64,000 bases of DNA, taken from Gordonia sihwensis NBRC 108236. GTDB lineage: Bacteria > Actinomycetota > Actinomycetes > Mycobacteriales > Mycobacteriaceae. The stretch is from the NCBI RefSeq assembly GCF_000333035.1, contig NZ_BANU01000006.1, forward strand, positions 1-64,000. Direction: 5' to 3'. A model generated the notes under the pieces. The model had not been told where the DNA came from. It made no database searches and saw only the letters and a program-made list of their open reading frames with translations. Of the stretch, positions 1-19,645 are shown in pieces. Made by a program: the position numbers and the translations under genes. Position 1 is the stretch's first letter. The number at the start of each line of letters is the position of its first letter.

Positions 1-307
1 CCTTCTCGTTGAATGGCTTGAAGGCTTTCGCGCAGCGGGAGAAGAGAGTCCTCGCTTGCACCGACGTGAACCGTGCCTCACCCTGAACCAGCCCGCTTGC
101 GACGAGCAGGTTGTGACCGTCTTCGTTCGGAACCGCGATCAACAGCGGGGACACTCGCGCAAGGGCCGCTTTCGCCAGCAACTCAAGCGCCAACGATGCC
201 CACAGCGCTCGTTCGTCGAAGTCGCGCGGTTCGTCGTCGTCCAGCGCATGGTTGATGAACAACTTGGCCTTGATCCAGAGAGCATCAGGGTTCCACGGAG
301 CTGTCAT
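1..307 (-). CDS. Partial conserved hypothetical protein, possibly HEPN-like
   Basis: The frame starts at ATG 307 and stays open to the window edge, giving about 102 residues of an N-terminus. It begins MTAPWNPDALWIKAK and contains a helix-rich stretch LWASLALELLAKAAL near residues 29-43. Alternating Glu/Leu/Lys-Ala helices of this kind occur in HEPN-type toxins and in the AbiV-like and DUF5677-like groups, so a HEPN fold is a guess. The start overlaps the stop of the TauD-like gene by four bases (ATGA), so the two are translationally coupled. No catalytic motif is visible because the C-terminus lies outside the window. Confidence 0.6.
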   Translation of the reverse strand, partial: MTAPWNPDALWIKAKLFINHALDDDEPRDFDERALWASLALELLAKAALARVSPLLIAVPNEDGHNLLVASGLVQGEARFTSVQARTLFSRCAKAFKPFNEK

Positions 308-966
308 TCGCCTCTCCCAAATCTGAACGCGACCCGGCGCAGGACACGATCTTCGTCATCCGGTGACACCTGGGCACGAGCATGCAAGGTGATCCGGTTG
401 TCGATCAGAAGCACCTCCCGATTTGAATCCCATGTGTGGGCATGGGCGTCATTCAGCACTTCCTCGAAGAAGGCCGCGAGTCGCCGTGCTCGTTGGTCGC
501 AGGGCTTCATACATCCAGGGTCGTACCGGATTTGGCCGTGGCTCGCGGCGACTGCGTGGATCCTCCGGCGGCCGGACGACATCAGGAACACGCCGTGCCG
601 CAGTGCGGACCAGGGAACTGCCCGACTGAGTCGCGCTGTGGTGTTGGCGGCTGTCCAGAGGCGGGTGGCAGTCCGGTTGGGTGTTTGGGCCTGGAGTGCC
701 ACGATCTCCGGGGGCAGAGGTAGATGCGCCCCGTCGGTGTGGAGTGGCTGAGCTCCCAGTCCGTACTGGACGCTGAGCGACCTGGGGTGCGCCTTGCGCG
801 CTGGCACGGGGTACAGCTCGGACACGGGCTCGTCGCCGAGTCGGGCAGGAACCTCGTGCCAACCCAGCGAGCGCGCAACCTGCCTCAGTTCCTGCAGGTC
901 TGCCCTCGCTGTGACCCATCCATTCACCGCGGCCTCGGCAGCCAACTCATTCAGCGCCAGGCTCAT
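304..966 (-). CDS. TauD/TfdA-like Fe(II)/2-oxoglutarate dioxygenase
   Basis: This 220-residue protein shows the jelly-roll dioxygenase facial triad: LHTDGAHL (His76, Asp78) and a distal His in ITLHARAQV (about residue 195). RVAFR near the C-terminus supplies a candidate 2-oxoglutarate-binding Arg. TauD relatives are usually about 280 residues, so this is a compact member. The family hydroxylates small molecules; the substrate cannot be read from sequence. The start overlaps the stop of an upstream methyltransferase-like remnant, and its own stop overlaps the next gene, so it belonged to a small operon. That operon now lies downstream of a type III restriction cassette, which suggests, without proving it, a role in defence or nucleic-acid modification. 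Confidence 0.75.
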   Translation of the reverse strand: MSLALNELAAEAAVNGWVTARADLQELRQVARSLGWHEVPARLGDEPVSELYPVPARKAHPRSLSVQYGLGAQPLHTDGAHLPLPPEIVALQAQTPNRTATRLWTAANTTARLSRAVPWSALRHGVFLMSSGRRRIHAVAASHGQIRYDPGCMKPCDQRARRLAAFFEEVLNDAHAHTWDSNREVLLIDNRITLHARAQVSPDDEDRVLRRVAFRFGRGE

Positions 967-1171
967 CCCCTTGCCCTGACTTTCGGGGGTATCGGAAGAT
1001 GGTCGAGGGAGGTCAGTTCGACGTATGAGGTGGAGAGGACCCGTTTTCGTTCGTCTGTACTCCCATCGGTGGTCTTCCCGCCGAATGCACGATCGGCGAT
1101 GGTGTCGAGGAGTCGTGGGCCTCGCGGAGCGCGTCCGGTATATCCGAATACTGGTAGTGCTGCTTCAACAT
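963..1171 (-). pseudogene. C-terminal remnant of a probable DNA methyltransferase, frameshifted
   Basis: From ATG 1171 one minus-strand frame reads ...IPDALREAHD. After a shift near 1112, another frame reads LDTIADRAFGGK, then DERKRVLSTSYVELTS, and stops at 963-965. An aLrkAH..LD...Y/FG...eR...lf..Y..Lt pattern is typical of the tail of large class I N6-adenine methyltransferases (MmeI/Eco57I-like). The body of the gene is missing; its 5' side is replaced by the end of the res gene. The stop overlaps the TauD-like start (ATGA), so it was probably the upstream member of that operon. Assignment rests on about 60 residues and is tentative. Confidence 0.4.
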
Positions 1172-1274: not shown

Positions 1275-4200
1275 CTACGTGGTCACGAGCTGCATCAACT
1301 CCGTGTAGTCCGTGACGACGTTGTATGTGATGTCCTGCCCGTTCTTCTTGTTGAGTGAGTTGAAGAACTCGCGGGCGCACTTGATCTTGGCCTCCTCGAT
1401 CCCTTTGAGCTGGAGGGTTGAGAGGGATCCCTTGGTCTCGGCGACGAAGTACACGTGCTTGACGCTGCCTTCGGTAAAGGCGATCGCCCAGTCGGGGTTG
1501 TAGTCGCCCACCGGGGTGGGGATGAAGAATCCCCGTGGCAGCTTCGCATAGACCGCGACCTCACTGCTGGTATCGAGCTCGGTGACGAAGTCGCGTTCGA
1601 TCTTGGAGTCCGTGATGACGTACTCGTAAACGTGCTTCTTCAGCTTTTCGCCGGCACGGGCGAAATCCTGCTTGGTCTGATTCTCGGTGAAGATCGCCGA
1701 GTCGAACCGGTCTTCCAAGGCGTCGTAGGTCAGGTGGTCGACGATCGCAGTGGCCTTCTGCTCGTTGATCAACCGGGCAGTCTCGGTGATGAACTGCTCC
1801 GGGTTGAGCCGGAACTTCGCGAACGTTGCTGGGGTGATCCCTCTGAGGATGGCTGCCACGGTGCGGCGGGTGAGCTTCGTCTTCTCTGTGATCTCACCGA
1901 GAAGGTCGTACTTCACCTGTGAGCCGGCTGTCGCGGTCTCGACTTCGGTGCGTGTGTCCGAGACCGTGAACCCGGTACCTTTGGCCAGGTCGTCGGCCTC
2001 GAGGGCGCCGCGTTGTGCACCTTCGTGGATGACGTACTGCATCGCGGCGACGTTGAGGTGCGTGTCGAGCGACTGGATGCACTTGCGTATCAGCTCATTC
2101 GAGTCGAACTCGACCTGATAGACGGCCTTGTGATTGATCCGGTTCCAGAGTGCCTGGAATTCTTTTCTGGCGAAGTTGGCCTCGTTGAGGGGAATCTTCT
2201 TCGGCTTGCGGTCGTCGGCCGGGACCGGGACGTCGAGGTAGAGCATGTCCACGAGTGGCCAAACGGAGTCGATGACAGGCTGGAGCGCCTTAGAGGTCGG
2301 CGGCGCGAGGGCGCCGGCAGCCTTGTCGTCCTTGTACTTGGTGGTGACGAGTCCGTCTTCGTCGACGTAGCCGTTCTGCACCAGATGGAAGTAGATCGTG
2401 GTGGCGAGCTTCTCCTCCACCACGGACTCACCCGACTGGGTCAGGATCGTCTTGCCGGTGAAGAACGACACGCTCGCCTTGCGGGGACGGACAGTAAGCG
2501 ATTCGGCGATCTCCTTCTGAAGCCCGGTGACGAAGTCCGTGTAGGACTCGTCGGTGACGACGGTGAGTTCGTTGATGTCGTGCACGGTGACCGGGTTGTC
2601 CATTCGCTCGCCGTGCTGGTCGACCGCCAGGCGCAGTCCGCGGCCGATCTCCTGACGGCGCGAGATCGTGTTGTCGCTCTTCTTGAGCATCCCCATCACG
2701 AACACGTTGGGGTTGTCCCAGCCTTCACGCAGTGCGGAGTGGGAGAAGATGAACCGAACCGGCTCGTCGAACGACAGCAGGCGTTCCTTCTTCTTCAGAA
2801 TCAGGTCGTAGGCGACGGTGTCGGTGGACTGACCCTTGTCGTCGCCCCGGCCGCTGACCTTGCCGTCGATCTGACGCTTGGTCTTCTTGTCGATGGAGAA
2901 GTAGCCCTCGTGCACCGCGCGGACGTCGTCACGCCGCAGATATACCTGGTGTGCGGCGGTAGATTCGTCGAGTGCGAGTTCGCCGAGTACCTCGTCGCGG
3001 ATTGTCTCGTACTCTTCCTCGAACCAGCGTGCGTAGTCGCCGAGGGTGTCCTCGCGGTCGTAGTTGCGATACTTCGCGACTTCGTCGATGAAGAACAGCG
3101 AGAGCACCTTGATGCCCCGGCCGAACAGCTCGCGCTCTTTGTCGAAGTGCGCGCGGACAACCTCACGAATCTGGATGCGCCGCTTCGCTTCCTCGGTCAC
3201 GTCCTGGGTGACCTGGCCGGCCATGACGATATCGCCGTTGCTCAGTTCGATGACGTCACGGTTCGCGTCGATGTCGGTGATGAACAGACCCTTGTAGGCC
3301 TCGATACCGTTGGAGAGGTCGTGCAGGTTGGCGCCGACATCGATGCGCTTGATCTGACGTGTGATCGGTCCCCCCTTGGTCTGCACCTCCAGCTCGACGC
3401 GCGCACGAGGCTTGGCTCCCTTGGCGATCTCGATCGCATCGAGATACAGGTACGCGGTCGAGCCGGCCAACCCCTTGACGGTGATTCCACGGACCGCGAT
3501 CTTCTTGACCAACTTCTGGTTGTACGCGTCCACGGCATCGAGCCGATGCACTTTCGTGTGCTCGACCTTGTGAGTGGCCGAATAGCGCAGCATCATCAGC
3601 GCGTTGAACCGTGAGAGCGCCTCCAACGACTTTGCGGCACCGACCTTCTGCGGCTCGTCGATGATGACGATTGGACGGTTTGCGCTGATCACATCGATGG
3701 GCCGGCGGGACTGGAAGTCGTCGAGCACGTCGTAGATGCGGCGGTTGTCCTTGCCGGTGGCGTTGAACGCCTGGATGTTGATGATCATCACCTGCACGCC
3801 GGCATCGGAGCTGAATCGCTCGATCTCGTGCAGCTGCGCCGAGTTGTAGATGAACGAGCGCGGCTTTGTACCGTAGATCTGCTGGAAGTGGTCGGCGGTC
3901 ACGTCGAACGACTTCTGCACGCCCTCGCGGATCGCAATCGACGGCACGACGATGATGTACTTCGACCAGCCGTACCGCTTGTGCAGCTCCATGATCGTCT
4001 TGATGTAGACGTAGGTCTTACCGGTACCGGTCTCCATCTCGACATCGAGATTCGGCACCCCCGGCGCGGCCTTGCTGTCCGCCACCTTGGCTGACAGCGG
4101 AAGGTTCCGGAATCGCTGCACCTTGTGCACGCTCTCCAGCAGCTGGGCGCCGCTGAGGGCGATCTCGGCGTTGCGGAGACCGGAATCCGGTGCCGAGTTC

Positions 4201-4352
4201 GCCTCGAACAGTGAGGGATTCGAGACCGGATTCGCCTTGCCGGGGTCGATTCGGTAGGAGATGCCGTCGTGCTTGGGCTGCCCGGCGAACACCTCGACCA
4301 CCGAGTCGACGGCGTCGGTCTGGTACTGCTGGACCTTGAACTGAAGCTTCAT
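1275..4352 (-). CDS. res: Type III restriction enzyme Res subunit (helicase-nuclease)
   Basis: This 1025-residue protein is the motor and nuclease subunit of a type III restriction system. It has an SF2 Walker A motif ETGTGKT (107-113), a DEAD-like box IIDEPQ (about 225-235), and motif VI with QEIGRGLRLA. At the C-terminus NPDWAIAF...FVAETKG is a PD-(D/E)xK nuclease site. Res proteins complex with Mod, translocate or slide on DNA from unmethylated sites, and cut when two complexes meet. The length matches the family (about 900-1050 residues). The gene begins 4 bases after the mod stop and is the last gene of the cassette. The frame is intact with all motifs present, so it looks active. Confidence 0.93.
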   Translation of the reverse strand: MKLQFKVQQYQTDAVDSVVEVFAGQPKHDGISYRIDPGKANPVSNPSLFEANSAPDSGLRNAEIALSGAQLLESVHKVQRFRNLPLSAKVADSKAAPGVPNLDVEMETGTGKTYVYIKTIMELHKRYGWSKYIIVVPSIAIREGVQKSFDVTADHFQQIYGTKPRSFIYNSAQLHEIERFSSDAGVQVMIINIQAFNATGKDNRRIYDVLDDFQSRRPIDVISANRPIVIIDEPQKVGAAKSLEALSRFNALMMLRYSATHKVEHTKVHRLDAVDAYNQKLVKKIAVRGITVKGLAGSTAYLYLDAIEIAKGAKPRARVELEVQTKGGPITRQIKRIDVGANLHDLSNGIEAYKGLFITDIDANRDVIELSNGDIVMAGQVTQDVTEEAKRRIQIREVVRAHFDKERELFGRGIKVLSLFFIDEVAKYRNYDREDTLGDYARWFEEEYETIRDEVLGELALDESTAAHQVYLRRDDVRAVHEGYFSIDKKTKRQIDGKVSGRGDDKGQSTDTVAYDLILKKKERLLSFDEPVRFIFSHSALREGWDNPNVFVMGMLKKSDNTISRRQEIGRGLRLAVDQHGERMDNPVTVHDINELTVVTDESYTDFVTGLQKEIAESLTVRPRKASVSFFTGKTILTQSGESVVEEKLATTIYFHLVQNGYVDEDGLVTTKYKDDKAAGALAPPTSKALQPVIDSVWPLVDMLYLDVPVPADDRKPKKIPLNEANFARKEFQALWNRINHKAVYQVEFDSNELIRKCIQSLDTHLNVAAMQYVIHEGAQRGALEADDLAKGTGFTVSDTRTEVETATAGSQVKYDLLGEITEKTKLTRRTVAAILRGITPATFAKFRLNPEQFITETARLINEQKATAIVDHLTYDALEDRFDSAIFTENQTKQDFARAGEKLKKHVYEYVITDSKIERDFVTELDTSSEVAVYAKLPRGFFIPTPVGDYNPDWAIAFTEGSVKHVYFVAETKGSLSTLQLKGIEEAKIKCAREFFNSLNKKNGQDITYNVVTDYTELMQLVTT

Positions 4353-4356
4353 CCGA

Positions 4357-6279
4357 TCAGATTGCCTTCACGTCCGTGGCCGGCGAGACCTCACGGAACA
4401 CTTGCTCCGCGTTGATCCGGGCGTCGTCCGAGGAGAAACCGGAATCCCGGAACACTGCCCGCAGAGGCTCACGCTTGGCGATGACGCGAACGGCCTCGGC
4501 GCTGACCTCCGAGTCGAAGCACGCGATCAGCGCACCGTCCTCGACCACGAAGACCTCGTGCCCGTCGATCTGCTCGATAGCGATTTCCATGGTGAGTTCG
4601 AGGCCCCAGTCGAGCATCACTTGGAACAGCAGGTCTTCGCCCGATCGTCCCTGCTTCACACTGCCTTCCAGTTCCGACAGCGACAGCTGATCGGTTTCAT
4701 CTGGCGAACGCAGCACATCGGTCATGTTGGTCGTGTCTACCCTCAGCGCACGGAATCCGACGTCGTAACCATTAGCAGCCAGGCCGGCGTCCTCGATAGT
4801 CTTCTTTCCGGCGCGTCGAACACGTTCCCGGCTCAAGTCAGCAATCGTTCGGTAGCCAGCCTGGCCAGCTGGCGATGTTTCAGGTAACTCCTCATCGAGC
4901 TGAATCAAAATGAACTGGCGCTGTTTCCCGTCGGCAGCAGACGTCTCAAGTACTGCCTGCGCGGTCGTCCCGGAACCCGAGAAGAGATCAACAACCACTC
5001 CGCCATCTGGAGCGCCGAGGAGACAGATCTCTCGCATGAGGGCCACCGGCTTCGGGTAGCTCATGAAATCGCCTTCTAGTAGGGCCTTTGTCTCCTGCGT
5101 GCCGTTTTGATTATCGAAGCCCTTGGCGTCCCAGACGGTCTTGAACTTCCGTTGCCGCTCCGCCCCTTCACGAAAGAGCGCGTCCTTTACAAAGATGTCG
5201 AACTCGTTTCGTCGCTCGATCCACCTGGCAACCAAGAGGTGCGTCATCTTTGAGCATCGATCCTTGCCCCACGCCCATCGACCATCAGTTCCATCGGCCT
5301 TTCGTGGAAGAACCTGTGACCAACCCGTTTGCGGCTCAAGCGAGATCGTCTCACCGTCTGGCGAGACAAAGAATGGAAAGTACATCTCCGGTCGATCACT
5401 CCGCTTGGATGCGGTACCTCGCTGGCGAAGGCCAAGTAGTCGGTACGGTCCTAGCTCTGGATCGTTCATCTTGAACTCGCCACGTTGTTCGTCCTCAAGC
5501 GGACGACCCCCGACGACTGCCGCTGAGCGGTCGCGCGCGTATACCAACAACGTGTCGTGGACTCCAGCAAGGAAGGAATCCGACTGCCGGCCTCGGGGAC
5601 TAGCTACAACGATTGCCTCGGCGACGAAGTTGCGCTCCCCGAAGATTTCATCACAGATCTTTCGCAGATTATGCGTCTCGTGGCTATCGATGCTCGCGAC
5701 AAAGAGTCCATCGGGGCTCAGTAGGGCACGCGCCAACTTCAGACGCGGATACACCATGCTTAGCCAGTCGGAATGAAAACGGCCGTTGGATTCGAGGTTT
5801 GCCACGAGTCGAACACCCTCTGCATCGAGTTGGCTGGACCTGAGCAGGTACTCCGACGTCGACTCGGCGAAGTCGTCCGCGTAGACGAAGTCGTTGCCCG
5901 TGTTGTATGGCGGGTCGATATAGATCAGCTTGACCTTGCCCAGGTAGGACTCCTGGAGCAGCTTCAGTGCGTCGAGGTTGTCGCCCTCGATGAACAGGTT
6001 CTTGGTGGTGTCGAAGTCGACGGATTCCTCGCGGACGGGTCGGAGGGTCTTGGCGATGGGAGCATTGGCGACGAATGCGGCGGCGCGTTTGCCGGGCCAG
6101 TCGAGCTGGTAACGCTCCTGCTGCCCCTCGACGACGTGGTCGCTCAACTCCTGACGCAGCAGGTCGAAGTCGATTGCCCGCTTCGGGTTACCCGCGGCGT
6201 CGAGGGTCTCGGTGACGACTCCGGGGAACAGTGCGGCGAGCTTGTCGATGTTGCCGTCGGTCAGGTCGGGGGAGGTCAT
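4357..6279 (-). CDS. mod: Type III site-specific DNA-methyltransferase Mod
   Basis: This N6-adenine methyltransferase recognises DNA and modifies one strand. IYIDPPYNTGND (catalytic DPPY) precedes VVDLFSGSGTTAQAVLE (AdoMet-binding FxGxG), the beta-class order typical of type III Mod proteins. The region between them holds the target-recognition domain. ATG 6279 is preferred because GGAGA lies about 10 bases upstream; an in-frame GTG at 6294 would add five residues. It follows the DUF4391 gene by about 30 bases and abuts res. Base composition in the central region (about 4800-5700) is lower in GC than the flanks, consistent with a horizontally exchanged recognition domain. The recognition sequence cannot be inferred. 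Confidence 0.92.
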   Translation of the reverse strand: MTSPDLTDGNIDKLAALFPGVVTETLDAAGNPKRAIDFDLLRQELSDHVVEGQQERYQLDWPGKRAAAFVANAPIAKTLRPVREESVDFDTTKNLFIEGDNLDALKLLQESYLGKVKLIYIDPPYNTGNDFVYADDFAESTSEYLLRSSQLDAEGVRLVANLESNGRFHSDWLSMVYPRLKLARALLSPDGLFVASIDSHETHNLRKICDEIFGERNFVAEAIVVASPRGRQSDSFLAGVHDTLLVYARDRSAAVVGGRPLEDEQRGEFKMNDPELGPYRLLGLRQRGTASKRSDRPEMYFPFFVSPDGETISLEPQTGWSQVLPRKADGTDGRWAWGKDRCSKMTHLLVARWIERRNEFDIFVKDALFREGAERQRKFKTVWDAKGFDNQNGTQETKALLEGDFMSYPKPVALMREICLLGAPDGGVVVDLFSGSGTTAQAVLETSAADGKQRQFILIQLDEELPETSPAGQAGYRTIADLSRERVRRAGKKTIEDAGLAANGYDVGFRALRVDTTNMTDVLRSPDETDQLSLSELEGSVKQGRSGEDLLFQVMLDWGLELTMEIAIEQIDGHEVFVVEDGALIACFDSEVSAEAVRVIAKREPLRAVFRDSGFSSDDARINAEQVFREVSPATDVKAI

Positions 6280-6311
6280 GCGCAGTTTCTCCACTGGTCA
6301 GTTCTGCCTCT

Positions 6312-6977
6312 TCATCTCAATGAGTCCAATGTTGCTTGCTTTGTCTTCAAGGTCCGCCGCAGCTCGATCTTGCGGTTGAGTTGCGGCTCTGTGCGGAGCT
6401 TGCGCTCCAGTGCCGCGATCTCGCGTTCGAGCTTGCGCACCGTCTCCAGTCTGGCTGCGACCTCTGACACGTTTTCACCCGGTCGCGCCGCCACCGGTGT
6501 CAGCGGGTCGAGTAGGGCGGTGTACAGCGCGGGCAAGGCGATCGCGGTGGGCAGCGGTTGCCGACGCGTATTGGCGGGCAGCCAGCCGGTCGAGTAGTAG
6601 GCGCTCAGTCGTGGCGCGCCGGAGCTGAGTTGCTTGTGCGCTGCCGCCATCCGAACAAGCTCGACATCGCCCTGGCTGCGGCTGATCTCGAAGACGATCG
6701 GGGACGGGATGGCCTTGTCGATCGCGTTCAACACCGGATCGGAGACGTCGGCGCCTTTTGCCTCGATTCGGAACACCTGGATCTCCGGGACGGCGTCAGT
6801 ACCAGGCAGGTGGATGGTGGCCTCGGCGAGTTTGTACGCCCAGGTGATACGCCTCACCTCGGAGACGAATTTCTCTCGCACCGCGGTCTGGACGTTGCCG
6901 TGCTCGTAGACCTTCTCCTTCGACACCCGGGCACCGAACTCGGCTGTTGCCGGCCACCGATACAGCAGATCACTCAT
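6312..6977 (-). CDS. DUF4391 domain protein of the type III cassette
   Basis: The 221-residue protein starts MSDLLYRWPATAEF at ATG 6977, overlapping the helicase stop by 8 bases. An in-frame start further upstream would only translate helicase-gene DNA. Its N-terminal half (KEKVYEHGNVQTAVREKF) and the run of paired strands match DUF4391, a family of unknown function that recurs beside restriction-modification and helicase genes. The C-terminal 60 residues (about 160-221) form a charged coiled coil rich in Glu/Arg/Lys, probably a partner-binding region. No nuclease or nucleotide-binding motif is seen. Position between the helicase and mod suggests a structural or coupling subunit; that role is inference. 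Confidence 0.8.
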   Translation of the reverse strand: MSDLLYRWPATAEFGARVSKEKVYEHGNVQTAVREKFVSEVRRITWAYKLAEATIHLPGTDAVPEIQVFRIEAKGADVSDPVLNAIDKAIPSPIVFEISRSQGDVELVRMAAAHKQLSSGAPRLSAYYSTGWLPANTRRQPLPTAIALPALYTALLDPLTPVAARPGENVSEVAARLETVRKLEREIAALERKLRTEPQLNRKIELRRTLKTKQATLDSLR

Positions 6978-9900
6978 CGGCCGCTGCGGTGGGGTCGACG
7001 ACGGCGATGAACGCGATGAGTTCGAAGTCGTCGAGGCCGGCGATGGTCTGGGTGAGGGCGGTGGTGCCACCGCCGGTGAACAGGCTGTCGATGTCGCGTT
7101 CCTCGGTGACCTCGATCATTGAGTGGATCGCGTCGGTGAGCAGTTCGGAGTACCGGCCCATGTTCACGCCCTCGCCGGTGGCCGCGTTGAAGATGCGGAC
7201 GACGTCGGTGACGGGCTGGTCGTGGGGACGGCAGCCCGAACGGATGAGGTCGAGCAGGTGCTTGGCCTCGGTGTGGTCGGCGATCACCTCGCCGTCGTCG
7301 TCGAGGTAGACGAGGTAGTGCGGGTGAAGCCGGTTGCCGCGGTTGATGTTCTCGTCGGCGTTCACGTTCCGCAGCGCGAAGATCACACCGGGCTTGAGTC
7401 CCTTGGCAGTGTCCGCAGGGACGACCGCGTGCAGGCCCTTCGGTGCGGCTGCGACGTCACCGTACTCCTTGACGTAGCCGAGCAGGTCCATGCGGAAGTC
7501 GTTGAGCCCCAGGTCGGTGATCGAGACACCGGTGCGGACGTCTTCGAGTTCGATGACCTCGTCCTGCAGCCTGCGGAGCTGCTGCTTGCGGAACGCGGCG
7601 TCGGAGTCTTCGAGGGTGAGGACGTTGTCGTCGGCGGTGCCGGCGAGGTCGGCGATCACCATCCGGTTCTCCACCCGCTCCTTGAGGTTGATGTACTCGT
7701 CGAGGGAGATGTCGGGCCAGAAGTTCACCAGCTGAATCCGGGAGTTCGTCGAGCCGATCCGGTCGATGCGGCCGAACCGTTGGACGATCCGCACCGGGTT
7801 CCAGTGGATGTCGTAGTTGATCAGGTAGTCGCAGTCCTGCAGGTTCTGGCCCTCGCTGATCACGTCGGTGCCGATCAGCACGTCGAGATCGCGGGTCTCC
7901 TTCGGCATGATCAGGTGCCGTTGCTTCGAGCGTGGCGAGAACATCGACATGATCTGCTGGAAGTCGAATCCGGTGCCCAGGGTCGTCTTCGCGCCGTGGC
8001 CGCTTCCGGTGATCATGGCCGTTTCCAGGCCCGCGGCGGTGAGGGCCGGCGCAAGTTCGCGATAGAGGTAGTTCGCGGTGTCGGCGAACGCGGAGAACAC
8101 CAGCACCTTACGGTTACCCGGGTTGATCGGCTGCGCGGCCTTGTCCTCGATGATCCGCGTGAGGGCCTGGAGTTTGAGGTCGCGGTCCGAGGTGACCTTG
8201 CGCATCTCGCCGAGGAGCGGGCCGAGGGTTTCGTGGTCGTTCCACAGGTCGCGTCGCCAGGAGTCGAGGTCGATGTCGTCGAGGTCGATCCTGATCTTGT
8301 CGCCGAAGGTGAGTGCCTCGACGTTCGCGTCGTCCTCGTCGTCCACGTCGAGGTCCAAGCCCGACACATCGGTGCCGAGGTCGACGGTGGCTCCGTTGTG
8401 GGAGTCGATCAGGCCGAGGGTGCGATCGACGGTGGCCTCGATCTTCGCCAGGGTCAGCCGGAACGCGTCGACCGAGCTCTCCAGACGTTTGAGGAGGTTG
8501 ACGGTCATGAGCTTCTTGAGGCCCTGCTCGCGGCCCTGCTGACCGAGGTTGGATCGTGCGTTGCCCGCGGTGACGTTGTAGAGGTCCTCGTACTTGCCGA
8601 TCCGGCTCGGGAACACGTACGCGAGCGGGGTGTAGACAGCCAGGGTGAGTGCCTGGAGCTGCTCGAAGATGTCGTTGAAGCCGGGCACGTCGGGGAGGTC
8701 GGTGAGCGGTTCACGGACCGATCGGGGAGGGAGCCGGTCGGGGAACGCGCCGATCTCGGTGGTGTCGTAGAACGCCTGAATGTGCTTGCGGGAGCGGGCG
8801 ATCGTGACCGCGTCGAGCAGTTCGAAGAAGTCGAAGTCGAGCATCTGGAGGATGCGATCGGAGGTGCGATCGTCCGGGTCGAGCTTGGACCACTCGTTGA
8901 AGACGGTCTGCGCGTCCTTGAAGACCTTCTCCACCGTGCTCGACAGGTTCAGGTGCCGGGACAGAGTCTCCGACTCACCCTCGTACGCGAGCTGAAGCTG
9001 GTTCCTCAGGTCGTTGAAACGGTTGTTGACCGGCGTCGCCGACAGCATCAGCACCTTGGTCTTCACGCCCTCGCGGATGACCTTCCGCATCAGGCGCTGG
9101 TAGCGGGACTCCTTCTCCTCGGCGTAGTCGGCGTTGCGGAAGTTGTGGGACTCGTCGATGACGACCAGGTCGTAGTTGCCCCAGTTGATCCGATCGAGCC
9201 GCAGTCCCAGCGATTCCCCTCGGGTGCGGGACAGGTCGGTGTGGGCGAGCACGTCGTAGTTGAAGCGGTCGCCGGCGAAGATGTTGGTGGTCAGGTTCGC
9301 GTTGTAGTTCGTCCAGTTCTCCGCGAGCTTCTTCGGGCAGAGCACGAGTACCGACTTGTTGCGCAACTCGTAGTACTTGATCACCGCCAATGCGGTGAAC
9401 GTCTTACCGAGGCCGACGCTGTCGGCAAGGATGCAGCCGTTGTAGGTCTCGAGCTTGTTGATGATCCCCGTCGCGGCGTCCCGCTGGAAGTTGTAGAGGC
9501 TCTGCCAGACGGTGGTGTCCTGGTAGCCGGTGCGGTCGTTCGGCAGGACGTCCTCGTTGATGTCGTCGAGGAACTCAGCGAACAGGGTGTGCAGGATCAG
9601 GAAGTAGATGCGGGCCGGGGAGTTCTCGGCGTACACACTCGCGATGTGGTCGTGGACCGCCTGCGTGACGTCGTCGAGCTGGTCCGGGTTGTTCCAGATC
9701 TGGTCGAAGATGGCGAGGAACTGCCGAGTCTCGGCGGCGCCCTCGGACTTGGTGACCATGTTCGAGACCGCCGGCCCCCGCTCGTAGCCGAGGTCGGTGG
9801 TCGTGAATCCCTGGATCGGGAAGTAGACGGCCGTCTCGTCAACCGCGGCGAGCGGCTGCATCGGGCTCCCGGTGGCGTTCGACCGGAACGTCACCTTCCT

Positions 9901-10239
9901 ACGCACCCAATCGGCGCACTCCCTCGCAATCGCGCGTTGGGTCAGCTGGTTGCGCAGCCTGATCTCGAACTCGGAGCCGTACAGGCTCGACTCGGCGTGC
10001 CCGCCTGGGATGAAGAACTCGCGGCGCTCCTTGCGCAGCCTGTCGGTCACCTTCTCTGTCACGAAGGACGGGGAGGTAAAGATGAACTCCAGCTCGGAGA
10101 CCTGCTCCAACTCTTTGCGTAGGGCCTCGAACGCGAAGATCGAAAAGGTCGACGCAGCGATGCGTAGCTTCGACCCCGCGGTGATCTCGGACTTGAGGTC
10201 GTCCCCGAGCCGGTCGTTGACATTGTCGATGATCCGCAC
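6970..10239 (-). CDS. SNF2-like helicase with PLD-like N-terminal domain
   Basis: This 1089-residue protein starts at GTG 10239 behind a strong GGAGGG. Residues 1-60 (LRIAASTFSIFAFEAL) and about 130-180 (QGFTTTDLGYERG) resemble the phospholipase-D-like module fused to many defence helicases, but the HxK part of HKD is not recognisable. The SF2/SNF2 motor follows: Walker A DSVGLGKT (273-280), DESH box VVIDESHNFRN, motif V GTDVISEGQNLQDCD, and motif VI QRFGRIDRIGS. It resembles HepA/DrmD-type translocases rather than a classical Res. Lying upstream of DUF4391-mod-res in one overlapping operon, it probably serves as an additional DNA translocase or sensor of the restriction system. Confidence 0.88.
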   Translation of the reverse strand: MRIIDNVNDRLGDDLKSEITAGSKLRIAASTFSIFAFEALRKELEQVSELEFIFTSPSFVTEKVTDRLRKERREFFIPGGHAESSLYGSEFEIRLRNQLTQRAIARECADWVRRKVTFRSNATGSPMQPLAAVDETAVYFPIQGFTTTDLGYERGPAVSNMVTKSEGAAETRQFLAIFDQIWNNPDQLDDVTQAVHDHIASVYAENSPARIYFLILHTLFAEFLDDINEDVLPNDRTGYQDTTVWQSLYNFQRDAATGIINKLETYNGCILADSVGLGKTFTALAVIKYYELRNKSVLVLCPKKLAENWTNYNANLTTNIFAGDRFNYDVLAHTDLSRTRGESLGLRLDRINWGNYDLVVIDESHNFRNADYAEEKESRYQRLMRKVIREGVKTKVLMLSATPVNNRFNDLRNQLQLAYEGESETLSRHLNLSSTVEKVFKDAQTVFNEWSKLDPDDRTSDRILQMLDFDFFELLDAVTIARSRKHIQAFYDTTEIGAFPDRLPPRSVREPLTDLPDVPGFNDIFEQLQALTLAVYTPLAYVFPSRIGKYEDLYNVTAGNARSNLGQQGREQGLKKLMTVNLLKRLESSVDAFRLTLAKIEATVDRTLGLIDSHNGATVDLGTDVSGLDLDVDDEDDANVEALTFGDKIRIDLDDIDLDSWRRDLWNDHETLGPLLGEMRKVTSDRDLKLQALTRIIEDKAAQPINPGNRKVLVFSAFADTANYLYRELAPALTAAGLETAMITGSGHGAKTTLGTGFDFQQIMSMFSPRSKQRHLIMPKETRDLDVLIGTDVISEGQNLQDCDYLINYDIHWNPVRIVQRFGRIDRIGSTNSRIQLVNFWPDISLDEYINLKERVENRMVIADLAGTADDNVLTLEDSDAAFRKQQLRRLQDEVIELEDVRTGVSITDLGLNDFRMDLLGYVKEYGDVAAAPKGLHAVVPADTAKGLKPGVIFALRNVNADENINRGNRLHPHYLVYLDDDGEVIADHTEAKHLLDLIRSGCRPHDQPVTDVVRIFNAATGEGVNMGRYSELLTDAIHSMIEVTEERDIDSLFTGGGTTALTQTIAGLDDFELIAFIAVVDPTAAADE

Positions 10240-10240
10240 G

Positions 10241-10435
10241 TCAGCCCTCCACCGTGTCGTGGTCTGCTGCGGCCCCGCCTCGGACCCAGTCGTCGACCTC
10301 GCTGGCCTGAAACTTCCACAGCCGGCCGATCTTGTGGGCGGGCATACCCTTCTCGGCGATCCAGGTGTAGACGGTGTCCTTGGTGACGCCGAGGTGGGCG
10401 GCGATGTCGTCAGCGGACAGCCAAGGCTCCGTCAC
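10241..10435 (-). CDS. AlpA/excisionase-type HTH DNA-binding protein
   Basis: This 64-residue protein is almost entirely one winged/MerR-like helix-turn-helix: WLSADDIAAHLGVTKDTVY, then GRLWKFQASEVDDWVR, the canonical HTH_17 pattern. Such proteins act as excisionases, phage activators or local transcription factors. It is the first gene of the restriction cassette and is separated by one base from the helicase start, so a regulator controlling delayed expression of the cassette is the natural reading. Direct and inverted GGTTTA-like sequences lie about 50-90 bases upstream and are the obvious candidate binding sites. An excisionase role for the surrounding island is an alternative. Confidence 0.82.
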   Translation of the reverse strand: MTEPWLSADDIAAHLGVTKDTVYTWIAEKGMPAHKIGRLWKFQASEVDDWVRGGAAADHDTVEG

Positions 10436-10661: not shown

Positions 10662-11075
10662 TCATCGTTGGCCTCCCCGGCCTGGTCCGATCGGTATGAC
10701 TCGTCCGGAATGCTGACCTTCTCGGAGCTGATCGTTTTCCAGCGCCAACATCTGAATGATCCGCTCGAGTTGGTGGATGGTTTCCTGCAGGGCAGTGACG
10801 TCCGCGGTGAGTTCTTCGATGCGACGCTGGGCATCGTCGCGCTCGTCGCGAAGTGCCACCAGAGCGGGTGGGGTGTCGGTATTCGCGACCCGTGCCCGGA
10901 ACTCCGCCTGCAGGTCGGTGTGGCGGTGCGTGAGAAGCCAGCGCTTGACGCGGGCCTCCTCGGCGAGCGCTTTGATGGTGAGTTTGCCGTCAGAGTAGAG
11001 CGGGTCTCCTGCGATGAGGCGATCCATCGCGTCGCGGATTGCCCGCCGTACGTCGTCGTCGGTGGTGGTCGTCAT
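10662..11075 (-). CDS. TnpC-like transposition accessory protein (DUF6262)
   Basis: The 137-residue product starts at ATG 11075, overlapping the recombinase stop (ATGA). Residues 1-60 look like a small helix-turn-helix (KLTIKALAEEARVKRWLL), and about 75-125 form a leucine-heptad coiled coil (IEELTADVTALQETIHQLER). This HTH-plus-coiled-coil layout is that of Tn554 TnpC and the DUF6262 family, which modulates the orientation and efficiency of recombination. In-frame starts further upstream would only translate the recombinase gene in another frame. The protein is intact. Confidence 0.82.
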   Translation of the reverse strand: MTTTTDDDVRRAIRDAMDRLIAGDPLYSDGKLTIKALAEEARVKRWLLTHRHTDLQAEFRARVANTDTPPALVALRDERDDAQRRIEELTADVTALQETIHQLERIIQMLALENDQLREGQHSGRVIPIGPGRGGQR

Positions 11076-13207
11076 CGGTGTCCCTCGGGGTTCCGGTGGT
11101 GGTCGATGATCCGTTGAAGGTTGCCGATGCGTTGTTCCAGGCGCGCTTTCATCGGTAGCGGGATGACCGGACTCGCGATCTCCTCGCGGAGTCGATCGAT
11201 GGCGGCTTCGGCGTTGGCGATGTTGTGGTCGGTGCGGGCGATGTTGCCGCAGTTCGGTTGGCAGTTGGTGATGTCCGGTGACGCGTCGATGCGCGCTGTT
11301 GTGGCCCGGTCGGGGTGGCACAGTGCCTTCGATTGGTCGTAGCAGCAGGTGACGAACTGCTCGCTGTTGTCGTAGATCCGCAGGCGGGGGTTCGCGTGCA
11401 GTGCTGCGGCTTGGCGGTTGGTCAGATACCGGCCCCCGAACTGCTGGTGGTAGAGGCGGACACCGTCCCGGTACCTCGGGGCGGCCGGCCCGGTGACCGT
11501 CTCACCGTCGTCCAGGCGTGTGTGGGCGGCTTCGAGGTACTCGGCGGCGGCGAGGGCTTCCTCCATGGGGAACACGTCTCGCAGTCCGCTGGCTACTCGG
11601 GAGCCGTAGCCATCGGTGGTGTGGCCTCGAAGGTGCCCGTACTGGATTCCCAGTGCGATACGTCCTCCCGGTCGGCGGTAGATGAACCAGGCGAGGGTGC
11701 GGCGGAATCGTTTGAGGACTACCGGGCCGTCGGGGTCGGCCGGGATGGACTCGTGTGCACGACCGAACTCGTCGGACTTGGCGTTGCACCAGGCGATCAG
11801 GTCCGCGGTGCGGTCGCGGATCATCCGCGGATGCACCGCCTTGTCTCGTTCGGCATGGCCGGTGAACGAGGTGTAAGCGCGGAGTGGGAACAGCAGTTGG
11901 CTGTCCGGGTACATCGCTTCCATCACCGAAACGGCCTTGGCGACGGGTGCAATCGCCTGCCAGGGCTGGTCACGTTGTGTCCCGGCCGGGATCGTGTTCC
12001 CGTTCTCGTCGAGTGCATCTTTGAACACTCGGCCGTAGATCAGATACCGGGTTTGCCCCGTGCTCTCGTCGGTGATCGTTCGGCAGCATCCGTGTTGCAG
12101 CGCCCGACACTCCTCGCCGCGCATACCGGTCAGGTAGGCCACTACGATGAAGGCCGCGGTCGCGAGCAGGTTGGAGAGCTCGTCGACCTCGTAGAAGTTG
12201 ACTCCTCGTGTCCACGGCTGTGTGTCGATCCTCCCGGTGATCGCGACCGGAAGGACGGCTTCGTCCGTGGGGTCGAGGTCGGCGAGCAGCGACGACCCGC
12301 CGGACTCTGAAACTTGCGCGGCGGTCAGGCCGAGCTGCCAACCGATGAACTGCATGGCGATGCAGCGCCGCTGTGGGCGGTTGGCCGGATAGAACCCCGG
12401 CACCGTTCCGGACGTCGCCCGTTGCTGCCGTGCGTAGTCCTTGAACCGTTCCCAGGCAGACCTGCCCTCCAGGAGGGGTGGGGTCTGTGGCGTTGACTTC
12501 GCGTGTCGTGCCGCGAGGATGTCGTCGCTGAAGTCGACGCAGAACCGAATCGCCCAGACGAGCAGGGCCGACATCGTCTGCGGGTGGATCGGCGGTGTGC
12601 GGTTCTCCGCGGACCACTTCGGGTCACCGAGGACATCTGCTCGAACGAGCGTGTCCTCCCAGTGGGGTCGGATCAAGGTGTCGCTGTCGGGCAGGTATGG
12701 CCCGTACAGCCAGCATCGGGTGATCGCGAAGAGTCGATTGGCTTGGCTTTCCCGGCTGAGGCCACTGGCGGTGACCTCGGAACAGTACCGCCGATACAAC
12801 TCGACGGTGACCTCGCTGAACTCGTGGACCGCTTGTGCCACAAGCCATTCCATCCACAACCGCATGAACCCCGCATAGACGACGATCGAGCCGACGGACA
12901 GCTGGGATCGTGTCGCGGTCGGTCTCTCCAGATCCTCGACCGGGGTGGGGACGTTCACGCAGAGCCAGACGAGCCGCTTCGCCGCCGGGCGGAAACACGG
13001 TGGGTAGGTGTCGAAGTTGACGGACTGGGTTCCTGTGACGGTGGGCTTGTGCAGCAGCGGCCCCAGGTCCCAGCGGCTGTCCCCGATCCGTGACAGCGGC
13101 TGTGTGTACGAGGGCGAGAGTCGAGTCTTGTCGAGGATGATCGGGTCGGAGTCGACCGTGGCCACCACAGTGGGTGGTGTCGAGACCGCGGCGGCGTACT
13201 GACTCAT
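11072..13207 (-). CDS. Tyrosine-type site-specific recombinase, TnpB-like (third of trio)
   Basis: This 711-residue recombinase has core motifs in its second half: GMRGEECRAL (catalytic Arg I), RRTLAWFIYRRPGGR (box II region with Arg), and YGHLRGHTTDGYGSR, where the final Tyr is the probable nucleophile. The N-terminal 250 residues form the SAM-like core-binding region. The C-terminal 100 residues carry CCYDQSKALCHP and CQPNCGN, a zinc-ribbon-like Cys cluster seen in Tn554 TnpB relatives. It overlaps both neighbours by four bases, so the trio and accessory protein are made together. It is longer than Tn554 TnpB (about 630 residues) but complete. Confidence 0.82.
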   Translation of the reverse strand: MSQYAAAVSTPPTVVATVDSDPIILDKTRLSPSYTQPLSRIGDSRWDLGPLLHKPTVTGTQSVNFDTYPPCFRPAAKRLVWLCVNVPTPVEDLERPTATRSQLSVGSIVVYAGFMRLWMEWLVAQAVHEFSEVTVELYRRYCSEVTASGLSRESQANRLFAITRCWLYGPYLPDSDTLIRPHWEDTLVRADVLGDPKWSAENRTPPIHPQTMSALLVWAIRFCVDFSDDILAARHAKSTPQTPPLLEGRSAWERFKDYARQQRATSGTVPGFYPANRPQRRCIAMQFIGWQLGLTAAQVSESGGSSLLADLDPTDEAVLPVAITGRIDTQPWTRGVNFYEVDELSNLLATAAFIVVAYLTGMRGEECRALQHGCCRTITDESTGQTRYLIYGRVFKDALDENGNTIPAGTQRDQPWQAIAPVAKAVSVMEAMYPDSQLLFPLRAYTSFTGHAERDKAVHPRMIRDRTADLIAWCNAKSDEFGRAHESIPADPDGPVVLKRFRRTLAWFIYRRPGGRIALGIQYGHLRGHTTDGYGSRVASGLRDVFPMEEALAAAEYLEAAHTRLDDGETVTGPAAPRYRDGVRLYHQQFGGRYLTNRQAAALHANPRLRIYDNSEQFVTCCYDQSKALCHPDRATTARIDASPDITNCQPNCGNIARTDHNIANAEAAIDRLREEIASPVIPLPMKARLEQRIGNLQRIIDHHRNPEGHR

Positions 13208-15018
13208 CCGTCGAGCTTCCTACTCAGAAGCCGGCTGACAACGTCGCGATCCTCGTCACCGGCGACACCACGCGCCTGAGCGATCTCGGCGGTCGTTGCA
13301 TTGGTCGTGAGCACCGTGCGCAGCCGGGCGTAGTGCTCGGCGAAGTCCCGATCCCATCGGGACGAAGTCACCACGGTGGCGACGTCGTCGAGCGCGTCGA
13401 GCAGGATGACCAGCCGTGGCAGATGCCGAGGTGTGATCACGGCATTGGCGCACCCGAAACACGCGAAGAACGAAGCCGGACACGGTTGGCCGGCATCGTC
13501 GGCGAACGGGCTCTCGAAGAAGTCCACGCAGGCTGCAGTCGGCGTATCCAGGCGGCCGGCCAGCAACAACGTGAGCACCTGAACCGACACGCCCAGCTCT
13601 GCGGCCGCTGTGTCCGGGTCCTTCCTTGCCGACTCGACCCCACGGCTATCCATCGCGCGGACATGGACCGAGGCGTGCGCGTGCGCGACGGCCTCGTTCA
13701 GTCCTTCGACGATCGTCTCCGACGATGCCTGTGCAGTCTGTGGATCCGGTCGGCGGTAGATGTCCTCGCTGTCGGTCTCGGAGTTCTGCCGTGCGGTGTG
13801 GTTCAAGACCTGTTCGGTCAACCGGAGCCGCCGGAAGCTCCACTGCGGGCCGGCTTCGGTCTGCGCCTCCTGCCCGGCTCGGCCGGCACCGAGGCACGCA
13901 GTCGCCCATTCGATCCGAAAGGGTCCGTGCTGATGAAGGTCCTTGTGACGGTGGGCGACCAGCAGCTTGCTAGTGGGGCGACCGATCGTGTCCAGCGCGT
14001 CACGGCACGGCTGGGTCAGCGTGATGACTGCGCGTTCCCACAGCTTTCCGGCCTCGCCGGCGAGGACCTCGTCCGAGTGGCGTTTGGTGCCTCGCCGCGG
14101 CTTGTCCACCCCTACGGTGTGAACTGGCCCCTCAGCATCGGGATCCGATGCCCGGAACGAGTCGACGGTCAGGTTGTTCATCACCGACAGGTTGAAGCCT
14201 CGCTCGCATACGAGCAGGACCATCAGGCAGAGCACCTCGTCGATGCTCGGGAACAGCGCCTGCGCGGGGTTGGTGACACCGCGCAGGTCGAAGCAGCCCT
14301 TCTGGCCAACCGCCCAAGCCAGGTACTGCGACGGCATCGTCCCCGTGCGGGCGAGGTGGGACAGCAGGGAACCGACCGTCCACCGAGTGCCTTGGACCTG
14401 GAACACCTGGACGTCCGCAGGTTCGTCGCCGCCGAGATACCGCTGCAGGACCGCGGTGTTCGCCTCGATGCGGCGCAGGGCTTGGTTCACCCGCTGTTTC
14501 GCGGTGTTGCGGATCGCCGTGAACTCTTCACGGGTGTAGGCGTCGTTCGCCGGCAGCCGTTTGCGTGGCTTGACGGCCTTCGCGCGCATTGCTCGTCGGG
14601 TCGAGTGCGGCAGGGTCGTCGCCTCCGACAACAACGCCCGCATCATTGTGACCTGCCCGGGCCAGCGGGTGCTCTGGTCCTTCTCCGCCCGCCATGCCCA
14701 CCACACTTCGGCGTCGAGGTCGGACAGAGAAGCGACATGCGGATGGCACTCGGTCAGGTAGCGGGCCAGGTGCTTGACTGCGCCAGCTGCCGCCTCTGCA
14801 GTCGTGATGGATTGCCAGCGGCCTCCCGGTGCGACACCGTTGGCGAACGCGCGAACAAGGTCGTCGAGGAGCGTTGGTGCTGCCGATACTTCACTAAAGT
14901 CGAAGACCTTGCCGCGGCCGTCGGGGTCGACGAAGTTCACCTGCCGCACGGAGTCGTCGACCAGGGTCGGCCGCACGTATTTGGTGGGCGGCAGTGCTGC
15001 CGACTTCGACGGGCTCAT
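13204..15018 (-). CDS. Tyrosine-type recombinase, TnpB-like (second of trio)
   Basis: The 604-residue protein is a second large recombinase-like subunit between the TnpA-like and 711-residue proteins. It has a SAM-like N-terminal region, a central VLLVCERGFNLSVMNNL (probable catalytic-core Arg region), a basic FRRLRLTEQVLNHTARQ segment, and a C-terminal CPASFFACFGCAN Cys cluster resembling the TnpB zinc region. The catalytic signature is weaker than in the other two, so it may act structurally. Start ATG 15018 overlaps the TnpA-like stop by four bases. The frame is intact. Confidence 0.75.
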   Translation of the reverse strand: MSPSKSAALPPTKYVRPTLVDDSVRQVNFVDPDGRGKVFDFSEVSAAPTLLDDLVRAFANGVAPGGRWQSITTAEAAAGAVKHLARYLTECHPHVASLSDLDAEVWWAWRAEKDQSTRWPGQVTMMRALLSEATTLPHSTRRAMRAKAVKPRKRLPANDAYTREEFTAIRNTAKQRVNQALRRIEANTAVLQRYLGGDEPADVQVFQVQGTRWTVGSLLSHLARTGTMPSQYLAWAVGQKGCFDLRGVTNPAQALFPSIDEVLCLMVLLVCERGFNLSVMNNLTVDSFRASDPDAEGPVHTVGVDKPRRGTKRHSDEVLAGEAGKLWERAVITLTQPCRDALDTIGRPTSKLLVAHRHKDLHQHGPFRIEWATACLGAGRAGQEAQTEAGPQWSFRRLRLTEQVLNHTARQNSETDSEDIYRRPDPQTAQASSETIVEGLNEAVAHAHASVHVRAMDSRGVESARKDPDTAAAELGVSVQVLTLLLAGRLDTPTAACVDFFESPFADDAGQPCPASFFACFGCANAVITPRHLPRLVILLDALDDVATVVTSSRWDRDFAEHYARLRTVLTTNATTAEIAQARGVAGDEDRDVVSRLLSRKLDG

Positions 15019-16478: not shown

Positions 16479-16546
16479 CCGCCACTCGTGCGCCCCCTCT
16501 GCGCTGCTCCACGGCAACATACGATGCCACAACACGCCGACATTTT

Positions 16547-19500: not shown

Positions 19501-19645
19501 TCCACAGCCACACCGCGTCGTACTGCTGCGACAGCACCGGATCGAGCTCGAAGTACCGCACCATCAGCTCCTCGAACCGGGTTCCGCGTTCGGCGTTCGA
19601 GGGTGCCTGGCGGAACGCTTAGATGACTTCGTGGATCGACCCCAT
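16547..19645 (-). pseudogene. Type ISP restriction-modification enzyme, interrupted
   Basis: This single-chain enzyme (LlaGI/LlaBIII type) normally joins nuclease, helicase, methyltransferase and target-recognition domains in about 1600 residues. Reading from ATG 19645, MGSIHEVI is followed by TAA at codon 9, then AFRQAPSNAERGTRFEELM in frame, so the true N-terminus carries a nonsense codon. Mrr-like nuclease residues (GIDLVA, then IQCKFY) and the helicase (MACGTGKT, VIADEAHR, SVGRVMRKADG) follow. The AdoMet motif is DPFTGTGTF, and the sequence ends at the catalytic VIVGNPPF, where the recombinase element begins. The remaining methyltransferase part and the recognition domain are lost. From GTG 19564 a 1000-residue fragment could still be made. 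Confidence 0.85.

Follow-up and report, generated by a model that had tools for sequence, protein, structure and literature searches.

We have analysed the first 64,000 nucleotides of contig NZ_BANU01000006.1 of Gordonia sihwensis NBRC 108236 (hereafter the window), which carry on the minus strand, from position 10435 down to 1275, five codirectional and intact open reading frames (ORFs) in the order HTH, SNF2, DUF4391, Mod and Res. Mod and Res belong to the families of type III restriction-modification, and the conservation of SNF2 and DUF4391 beside them suggests that the unit is a widespread, apparently unnamed type III restriction variant. The genes are tightly packed, with a gap of one base between HTH and SNF2, an overlap of 8 bases between SNF2 and DUF4391, and gaps of 17 and 4 bases before Mod and Res, respectively. 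An earlier interpretation made from the sequence alone (hereafter the sequence-only reading) had described such a packed five-gene cassette, and the identities that it gave to the proteins were borne out concordantly by three family libraries, Pfam, PADLOC and NCBIfam.

Conservation of the unit

DUF4391 is a rare family, found in 6 of 298 genomes of the order to which the window belongs, in 42 of 72,556 plasmid records and in 2 of 50,697 phage records. A scan with one genome per species gave 361 relatives. The counts for genome loci rest on the best 80 of these 361, nearly all from Actinomycetota and including some near-copies (such as L032/L033 and L038/L040/L042), so that they do not represent 80 independent observations. 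All 80 had SNF2 and Mod, and Res was present in 74. Among the 70 loci that extend 5.5 kb or more downstream of DUF4391, it was present in 69, L050 being the exception. This co-occurrence had been proposed as a check of the sequence-only reading, and it holds. In viral contigs, the 16 loci found with DUF4391 as seed contained SNF2 (16), Mod (15) and Res (13).

The small HTH gene is optional. A relative scoring above 30 bits was found in 43 of the 80 genome loci, 73 of the 80 having more than 600 bases upstream of SNF2. The cassette as first described therefore stands as regards SNF2 and DUF4391, which are conserved with Mod-Res and are not passenger-like, and has to be reduced to a universal core of four genes, SNF2-DUF4391-Mod-Res. 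Actually, the first gene is variable: the HTH of the window is near MAD1 of NCBIfam (75.2 bits, below the cut-off of 80) and in Enterobacter a WYL gene was found. Other genes appear inside the operon, coding for SLFN_AlbA_2 (L025), an OLD-type ATPase (L207 and L204), a subtilase (L101) or UvrD (L107), and the Enterobacter operon additionally holds an ATP-dependent endonuclease and DUF2130.

Apart from single loci from a Deinococcota and a Chloroflexota bin, the unit was found in Actinomycetota, Pseudomonadota and Bacillota, the last two of which also carry it on plasmids. We opened twenty annotated regions. The four genes follow one another as SNF2-DUF4391-Mod-Res in Mycolicibacterium, E. coli, Methylotuvimicrobium, Acinetobacter, Weissella, Listeria, E. 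faecium, Providencia, Lactococcus and Photobacterium. Phaeobacter and Enterobacter have this order too, with additional genes between the four. The unit of another Acinetobacter and those of Sphingobium and L. cremoris are broken by insertion sequences, and the Neotabrizicola record ends after DUF4391-Mod.

The converse was examined in 396 genomes of the phylum of the window, in which at most two candidates per genome were scored for SNF2 and Res, so that absences are soft. DUF4391 was found in 13 of them. All 11 genomes with a match above 350 bits to PDLC01075, the PADLOC model nearest to the SNF2 of the window, had DUF4391, as did one of the 18 with a weaker match (G555, where SNF2 is partial on a short contig). 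Res of the cassette type was found in 23 genomes, 12 with DUF4391 and 11 without a match to it, and in all eight of these 11 that were opened Mod adjoins Res. Mod-Res pairs without SNF2 and DUF4391 are also found in a S. hominis plasmid and in Thiodictyon (with a RhuM gene between them). The dependence is one-way: the SNF2-DUF4391 module needs Mod-Res with few exceptions, and Mod-Res is independent of the module. The five loci obtained in viral contigs with Res alone as seed all had SNF2 and are too few for a test.

Two of the eight opened loci without DUF4391 match have a different, DrmD-like SNF2 directly before Mod-Res (L211, 4368-18424, and L210, 3188-11099; 581 and 677 bits). In L211, which comes from the same genus as the window, genes for a PDDEXK_1 protein and a UvrD/GajB-like helicase come after these. 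According to the consulted part of PMC12757443, one Cronobacter element has a type III restriction enzyme and Mod together with helicase IV, a PD-(D/E)XK protein and a SNF2 helicase. This would appear to be closer to the L211 arrangement than to the DUF4391 unit.

A probable SNF2 motor without the HKD pattern

The SNF2 protein of the window has the Pfam domains SNF2-rel_dom and Helicase_C, and its top PADLOC match is PDLC01075, named 'HKD+Snf2', of which it covers positions 161-947 of 948, leaving the HKD part of the profile unmatched. The ATPase motifs DSVGLGKT, DESHNFRN, LSATPVNN and QRFGR.DRIGS are conserved among 101 aligned SNF2 proteins. The PLD-like head noticed in the sequence-only reading is indeed present, but its HKD catalytic residues are gone, which had passed unnoticed and changes the likely division of labour. 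In alignment with HKD-intact relatives, the HxK of the head is replaced by M127-Q128 (bases 9861-9856) and GSSN by IQGF. At least 95% of the 101 aligned proteins have MQ at the HxK place, and in a wider set this varies to MG, IQ, PQ and others.

We defined the HKD pattern as H[AGSC]K followed by a GSSN-like motif and looked for it in 162 different SNF2 proteins. None of the 126 from loci with both Mod and Res has it. The eight HKD-intact proteins (L122, L183-L186, L190, L205 and L206) have neither Mod nor Res of the cassette family beside them, although seven of these loci extend at least 6.5 kb downstream. The same was seen in viral contigs collected with SNF2 as seed (80 rows, from which 8 short or identical ones were removed; some contigs are shared with the DUF4391 seed). 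With at least 6.5 kb downstream, as required for the test, all 46 HKD-degenerate rows had Mod and/or Res (41 had both) and none of the six intact rows did; the rows with too little downstream sequence comprised 19 degenerate ones, five of them without partner, and one intact. In a tree restricted to the helicase columns, a single clade with support of 100 unites five HKD-intact rows. The HKD label requires a minimum of two changes on this tree, and a single origin is also compatible with it. The contrast between HKD-degenerate proteins with Mod-Res and HKD-intact ones is clean, though few events underlie it, and the loss of HKD in the Mod-Res-linked SNF2 lineage is a new observation.

The nuclease of Res is retained. 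Besides its match to REase_III of PADLOC and to RE_endonuc of Pfam, Res matches PF04851, and it combines a SF2 ATPase with a C-terminal PD-(D/E)XK nuclease in a gene adjacent to mod, as in type III enzymes. The motifs METGTGKTY, DEPQ and PDWAIAF...AETKG are conserved, the catalytic motifs being kept in at least 95% of 89 aligned proteins, and with a limit of E 0.01 the only PDB sequence matched was the Res of EcoP15I (4zcf; 1.7e-65). The Res, Mod and helicase ATPase had been described as intact, and both the reading frames and the motifs agree with this. Because HKD is lost in SNF2 and the nuclease and ATPase motifs of Res are kept, cutting probably belongs to Res, and SNF2 probably became a motor with a docking head whose own PLD nuclease decayed.

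Exchange of target domains in Mod

Mod is a type III methyltransferase by its match to MTase_III of PADLOC and has the conserved motifs DPPYNTG and DLFSGSG, the latter being the S-adenosylmethionine motif. When compared with eight relatives, its conservation was very uneven along the protein. Residues 1-215 are 76-88% identical in all eight (76-84% in the seven with a divergent target domain) and residues 501-645 are 70-82% identical. The variable target domain (residues 216-410) shows only 22-38% identity in seven of the eight and 90% in L019, and residues 411-500 follow the same division, with 39-49% in the same seven and 82% in L019. For SNF2 and Res the identity is 80-91% in the five relatives compared. 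These alignments show that Mod changes its target domain within an otherwise constant machine, which a functioning restriction system with a sequence-specific Mod should do.

Furthermore, 12 of the 80 genome loci have a tandem pair of full-length Mods, both with the DPPY and FxGS motifs, so that one machine may serve two specificities there. Tandem Mods with one Res were seen in L020, L025, L028, L030, L032, L033, L045, L049, L072, L073, L074 and L083, and also in L220, L131 and L189. Several of the tandem loci have a gene of 560-600 amino acids before Res, which in the one scanned (L025) codes for the SLFN_AlbA_2 protein.

DUF4391 and the methyltransferases of sister operons

The DUF4391 protein of the window matches PF14335 with 165.9 bits, well over the gathering cut-off of 29.9; the divergent Listeria version, annotated as hypothetical, still matches at 5.7e-8. 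Its AlphaFold model (mean predicted local distance difference test, pLDDT, 89.9) has strands at 41-51, 65-73, 94-102, 105-116 and 123-129, helices at 52-55, 80-89 and 148-159, and two long C-terminal helices (170-196 and 200-220). A Foldseek comparison with the PDB gave nothing at E of 0.001 or below (best TM score 0.22 among the matches listed) and was uninformative on the alpha/beta head, VIA-align found mainly look-alikes of the helical hairpin, which says little on this head, and the profile had no match among PDB sequences at E up to 5. A PD-(D/E)XK nuclease, brought to mind by the stretch EIQVF.I..K, is not claimed, since no nuclease family of the three libraries matches. K74 is conserved in at least 90% of a closer set and lost in several distant members (ITART, LCLTG).

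The closest HKD-intact relatives of SNF2 are found in what we call sister operons (L183-L186 and L190), where SNF2 adjoins a large methyltransferase of Eco57I type. They lie in viral contigs and no name was found for such an operon. The methyltransferase of L184 is cut by the contig end, and L185 has a KilA-N gene between SNF2 and the methyltransferase. An AAA/SMC-like ATPase gene comes next after the methyltransferase in the three examined (L183, L185 and L190). All five methyltransferases have a DUF4391-like N-terminus, with Pfam matches under the cut-off (9.9e-5, 8.6e-5, 0.001, 0.0027 and 0.029). When the N-terminus was scanned alone DUF4391 was the best match at 5.4e-6, and the sole other match had E 0.29. 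The five N-termini align in register with DUF4391, and a fragmentary copy of the methyltransferase in L228 matches it over the same stretch. An iterated DUF4391 profile run against 48,971 ORFs from the collected loci had sister methyltransferases as its top three matches outside the family (E 0.053, 0.48 and 2.1); that of L190 came lower (7.0) and that of L183 was absent. A model of the methyltransferase N-terminus built from the five sequences has strands at 70-80, 108-116, 141-147, 150-157 and 173-181, helices at 84-89 and 123-136, an extra helix at 187-196 and then helices at 212-223, 225-245 and 258-284. Compared by the order of their elements, the two models share the same succession of strands and helices from the first long strand on and differ before it.

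Some results speak against a relationship. The best DUF4391 match in these methyltransferases, 26.9 bits, stays under the gathering cut-off, the model of their N-terminus is middling (mean pLDDT 69.6), and hhalign gave a weak alignment between the two (probability 0.6%, E 0.094). The five methyltransferases are kin of one another, and those of L122, L225 and L226, beside more distant SNF2s, had no DUF4391 match. On balance, alignments and models make it probable, at about two chances in three, that DUF4391 is kin to the N-terminal domain of the closest sister methyltransferases. When a domain is part of the methyltransferase in one lineage and a protein of its own in the other, this classically points to a physical partner. 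The DUF4391-like domain on these methyltransferases, seen as a similarity below the cut-off, appears to be a new observation.

Comparison with known systems

Type III enzymes are textbook two-subunit machines. The window shares with EcoP1I, EcoP15I and LlaFI the Mod and Res families, the mod-res order and a Res with ATPase and C-terminal PD-(D/E)XK domains, and differs from them in the SNF2 motor and DUF4391 as near-constant partners in its lineage. A review of 2013 (PMC3874151) gives R2M2 subunits for the characterised type III enzymes; its text uses neither the word 'accessory' nor the word 'SNF2'.

The helicase at least is already listed in a defence library. The SNF2 of L204, from a locus with DUF4391, Mod and Res, matches PDLC01075 ('C3a139, HKD+Snf2') over its full length (732.4 bits, positions 1-947), whereas the SNF2 of the window leaves the first 160 positions unmatched and so falls short of a full-length match; the model names no partners or function. 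A similar helicase is known from Type-2 BREX-related systems, which according to the sections consulted of PMC12839542 have an N-terminal HKD plus Swi2/Snf2 helicase, a N6 methyltransferase and a small extra protein, and use a DUF499 ATPase and DUF3780, with HKD as primary effector. In the window, by contrast, the HKD of SNF2 is lost (HxK to MQ) and the Res nuclease is present. Our scan with PADLOC and Pfam covered 13 ORFs between 307 and 31022, five of them those of the cassette, and among these 13 neither DUF499 nor DUF3780 (Pfam) nor PglZ was matched.

DISARM has a SNF2-type helicase, DrmD, beside a DNA methyltransferase, and a YprA-like helicase, DrmAB, is central to it. ARMADA type II likewise has a SNF2-type helicase (ArmA) beside a DNA methyltransferase, as far as the consulted text of PMC12458937 goes. 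The central YprA-like helicase of both (DrmAB/ArmC) was not found in the cassette. The sequence-only reading had excluded DISARM for lack of DrmA and DrmB, and rightly as far as the scan goes: neither was found as such among the 13 ORFs, DrmA appearing only as a helicase cross-hit of SNF2 (73.7 bits). The SNF2 itself scored 154.9 bits against DrmD of NCBIfam, where the cut-off is 610, and HKD+Snf2 (1.4e-120) far outscores DrmD (3.3e-36). As for MADS, the HTH comes close to MAD1, under its cut-off, and no other MAD protein was detected among the 13 ORFs, except weak mad2 cross-hits of Mod and of an ISP-type fragment. Membership of DISARM, MADS or the BREX-related systems was rejected on the features tested. 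The sister operons differ from the cassette in their intact HKD and their type IIG-like Eco57I/TaqI_C methyltransferase, and no Mod or Res of the cassette family was detected in them.

We found no description of the four-gene unit in the open-access literature, supplements and non-open papers being outside this scope, where an earlier description is possible. The consulted parts of PMC10853773, PMC12839542, PMC12458937, PMC2292703, PMC9122601, PMC8565338, PMC3874151, PMC2932693 and PMC12757443 do not describe it. DUF4391 itself was met in a single paper, where it is a row in an enrichment table (PMC7784981).

Coordinates and surroundings of the cassette

The coordinates of the cassette are collected in Table 1. 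For DUF4391 the mechanical ORF list gives a start at 7070 (252 amino acids); the ATG at 6977 (221 amino acids) is the likely one.

Table 1 Genes and domains of the cassette in the window
Feature	Positions	Strand	Basis
HTH, small HTH_17/excisionase-type regulator, 64 amino acids, optional first gene	10241-10435	-	PF12728 1.2e-14
SNF2-family translocase, 1089 amino acids, N-terminal degenerate PLD/HKD head	6970-10239	-	PDLC01075 HKD+Snf2 1.4e-120
PLD-like head of SNF2, residues ~1-230 (approximate limits)	9550-10239	-	alignment with HKD-intact relatives
DUF4391 protein, 221 amino acids, alpha/beta head and C-terminal helical hairpin	6312-6977	-	PF14335 1.8e-48
Mod, beta-class N6-adenine type methyltransferase, 645 amino acids	4357-6294	-	PDLC03634 661.4 bits; PF01555 6.6e-31
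Res, SF2 ATPase and C-terminal PD-(D/E)XK nuclease, 1025 amino acids	1275-4352	-	PDLC03647 1075.7 bits; PF19778 4.8e-33

Upstream of the cassette, on the same strand (10662-15887), there are four ORFs, a phage-integrase-type one of 290 amino acids followed by others of 604, 711 and 219. The cassette of Rhodococcus coprophilus has the same four beside it in this order (L095, 383-1317 bits), as do, with distant versions, the mycobacterial loci L007, L038, L040 and L042 (28-52 bits). They are possibly a recombinase module carrying the cassette. A shortened copy of a type ISP-like restriction enzyme (16448-19618, minus strand; Mrr_cat_2, ResIII and ISP_coupler, profile positions 12-1035 of 1646), which ends about 560 bases from the integrase ORF, is a sign of a defence island. 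In addition, a DUF6602 protein (21829-22743, minus strand) has weak similarity to NucC-type nucleases (PADLOC 1.2e-13). Directly downstream of Res lies a TauD/TfdA-like dioxygenase ORF (307-1164, minus strand; PF02668 1.9e-7). No AAA ATPase such as follows Res in Mycolicibacterium was found in the remaining 1274 bases, base 1 of the window being the start of the contig.

A possible mechanism and its alternatives

Classical type III cleavage requires ATP and two unmodified inverted sites, with passive sliding between the two, and cuts at a fixed distance. We give an even chance to the reading that the cassette is a motor-equipped variant of such a system, in which a motor docked via DUF4391 moves DNA and drives cleavage by Res; a physical complex, translocation and phage defence are what we infer from it. 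Mod would recognise and methylate a short site via its exchangeable target domain, and Res would bind Mod, sense unmodified sites with its ATPase and cut with its PD-(D/E)XK domain. SNF2 would be a double-strand DNA motor in which the decayed PLD nuclease is left as a structural or docking head, and DUF4391 an adaptor tethering this motor to Mod. By moving DNA relative to Mod-Res at an unmodified site the motor would trigger or widen cleavage, for example by replacing the passive sliding of the classical enzymes. A broader proposal, which we hold more tentatively, is that DUF4391 may be a general coupling domain docking SNF2 motors on DNA methyltransferases in two lineages. In one of them the HKD-SNF2 motor itself would cut and a type IIG-like methyltransferase would carry the domain as a fusion; in the Mod-Res lineage the motor would have lost its nuclease and Res would cut, giving an actively pumped, type I-like type III system free of the two-site rule.

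Several findings weigh against the motor-equipped reading. Since a complete enzyme of known type needs nothing more than Mod-Res, the motor is dispensable in principle. G664 (L209) has DUF4391-Mod-Res without SNF2, G632 (L207/L208) has SNF2-DUF4391-OLD-Mod with Res 133 kb away, and Res was not found despite room for it in L050, L150, L154, L163 and L198. HKD may have been lost in one or two events, so that its contrast with Mod-Res amounts to few independent observations, near-copies having been kept. The Mod-Res pairs without the module in the S. hominis plasmid and Thiodictyon, the lack of a DUF4391 match in 11 of the 23 phylum genomes with Res (the eight opened all having Mod beside Res) and the insertion of other defence genes in the same operon would also fit a plain type III system, SNF2 and DUF4391 being neighbours that merely travel in the same defence island. 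We consider this improbable in view of the associations obtained from two seeds (80/80 and 46/46), with gene order and orientation mostly shared between phyla, of genes that overlap or nearly touch in the window, and of a loss of HKD seen only in the Mod-Res context.

SNF2 and DUF4391 could instead act on the modification side, helping Mod to methylate or stripping Res from host DNA and so preventing self-cutting. SNF2 proteins elsewhere remodel protein-DNA complexes, Swi/Snf-type remodellers and RapA top the list of solved relatives of the SNF2 studied here, and the DUF4391-like domain of the sister operons sits in methyltransferases. Mod-Res pairs lacking the module are nevertheless presumably tolerated by their hosts, and we regard this role as unlikely, though it is the alternative that we would take most seriously. 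That the two proteins form a second effector or sensor answering phage inhibitors of Res, and not a cleavage aid, is still more doubtful. The SLFN_AlbA_2, OLD-type ATPase, subtilase or UvrD genes inside some operons would suit it and can be likened to the backup effectors described for BREX in the consulted part of PMC12839542; however, a SNF2 head without the HKD pattern and a DUF4391 without nuclease match are neither of them effector-like by themselves. Least credible of all is a reduced DISARM or a BREX-related system. Both the DrmD-type similarity of SNF2 and the BREX-related HKD plus Swi2/Snf2 helicases that accompany a N6 methyltransferase (PMC12839542, consulted in part) point towards it, but DrmA/DrmB, DUF499, DUF3780 and PglZ were missing from the ORFs scanned, the DrmA cross-hit apart, and in their place stands a type III Res that brings a nuclease of its own.

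Meaning of the additional proteins

With few exceptions, this lineage, which occurs in several phyla both on plasmids and on chromosomes, retains two proteins more than the enzyme type to which it belongs. The lost HKD head beside the conserved nuclease of Res offers an evolutionary test of the passage from a nuclease-motor to a motor only, and the docking role proposed for DUF4391 would be a first hypothesis on the function of PF14335. Should the motor prove obligatory, some of the systems now annotated as simple type III restriction would work differently, and their site rules, methylation maps and phage escape would call for a new interpretation.

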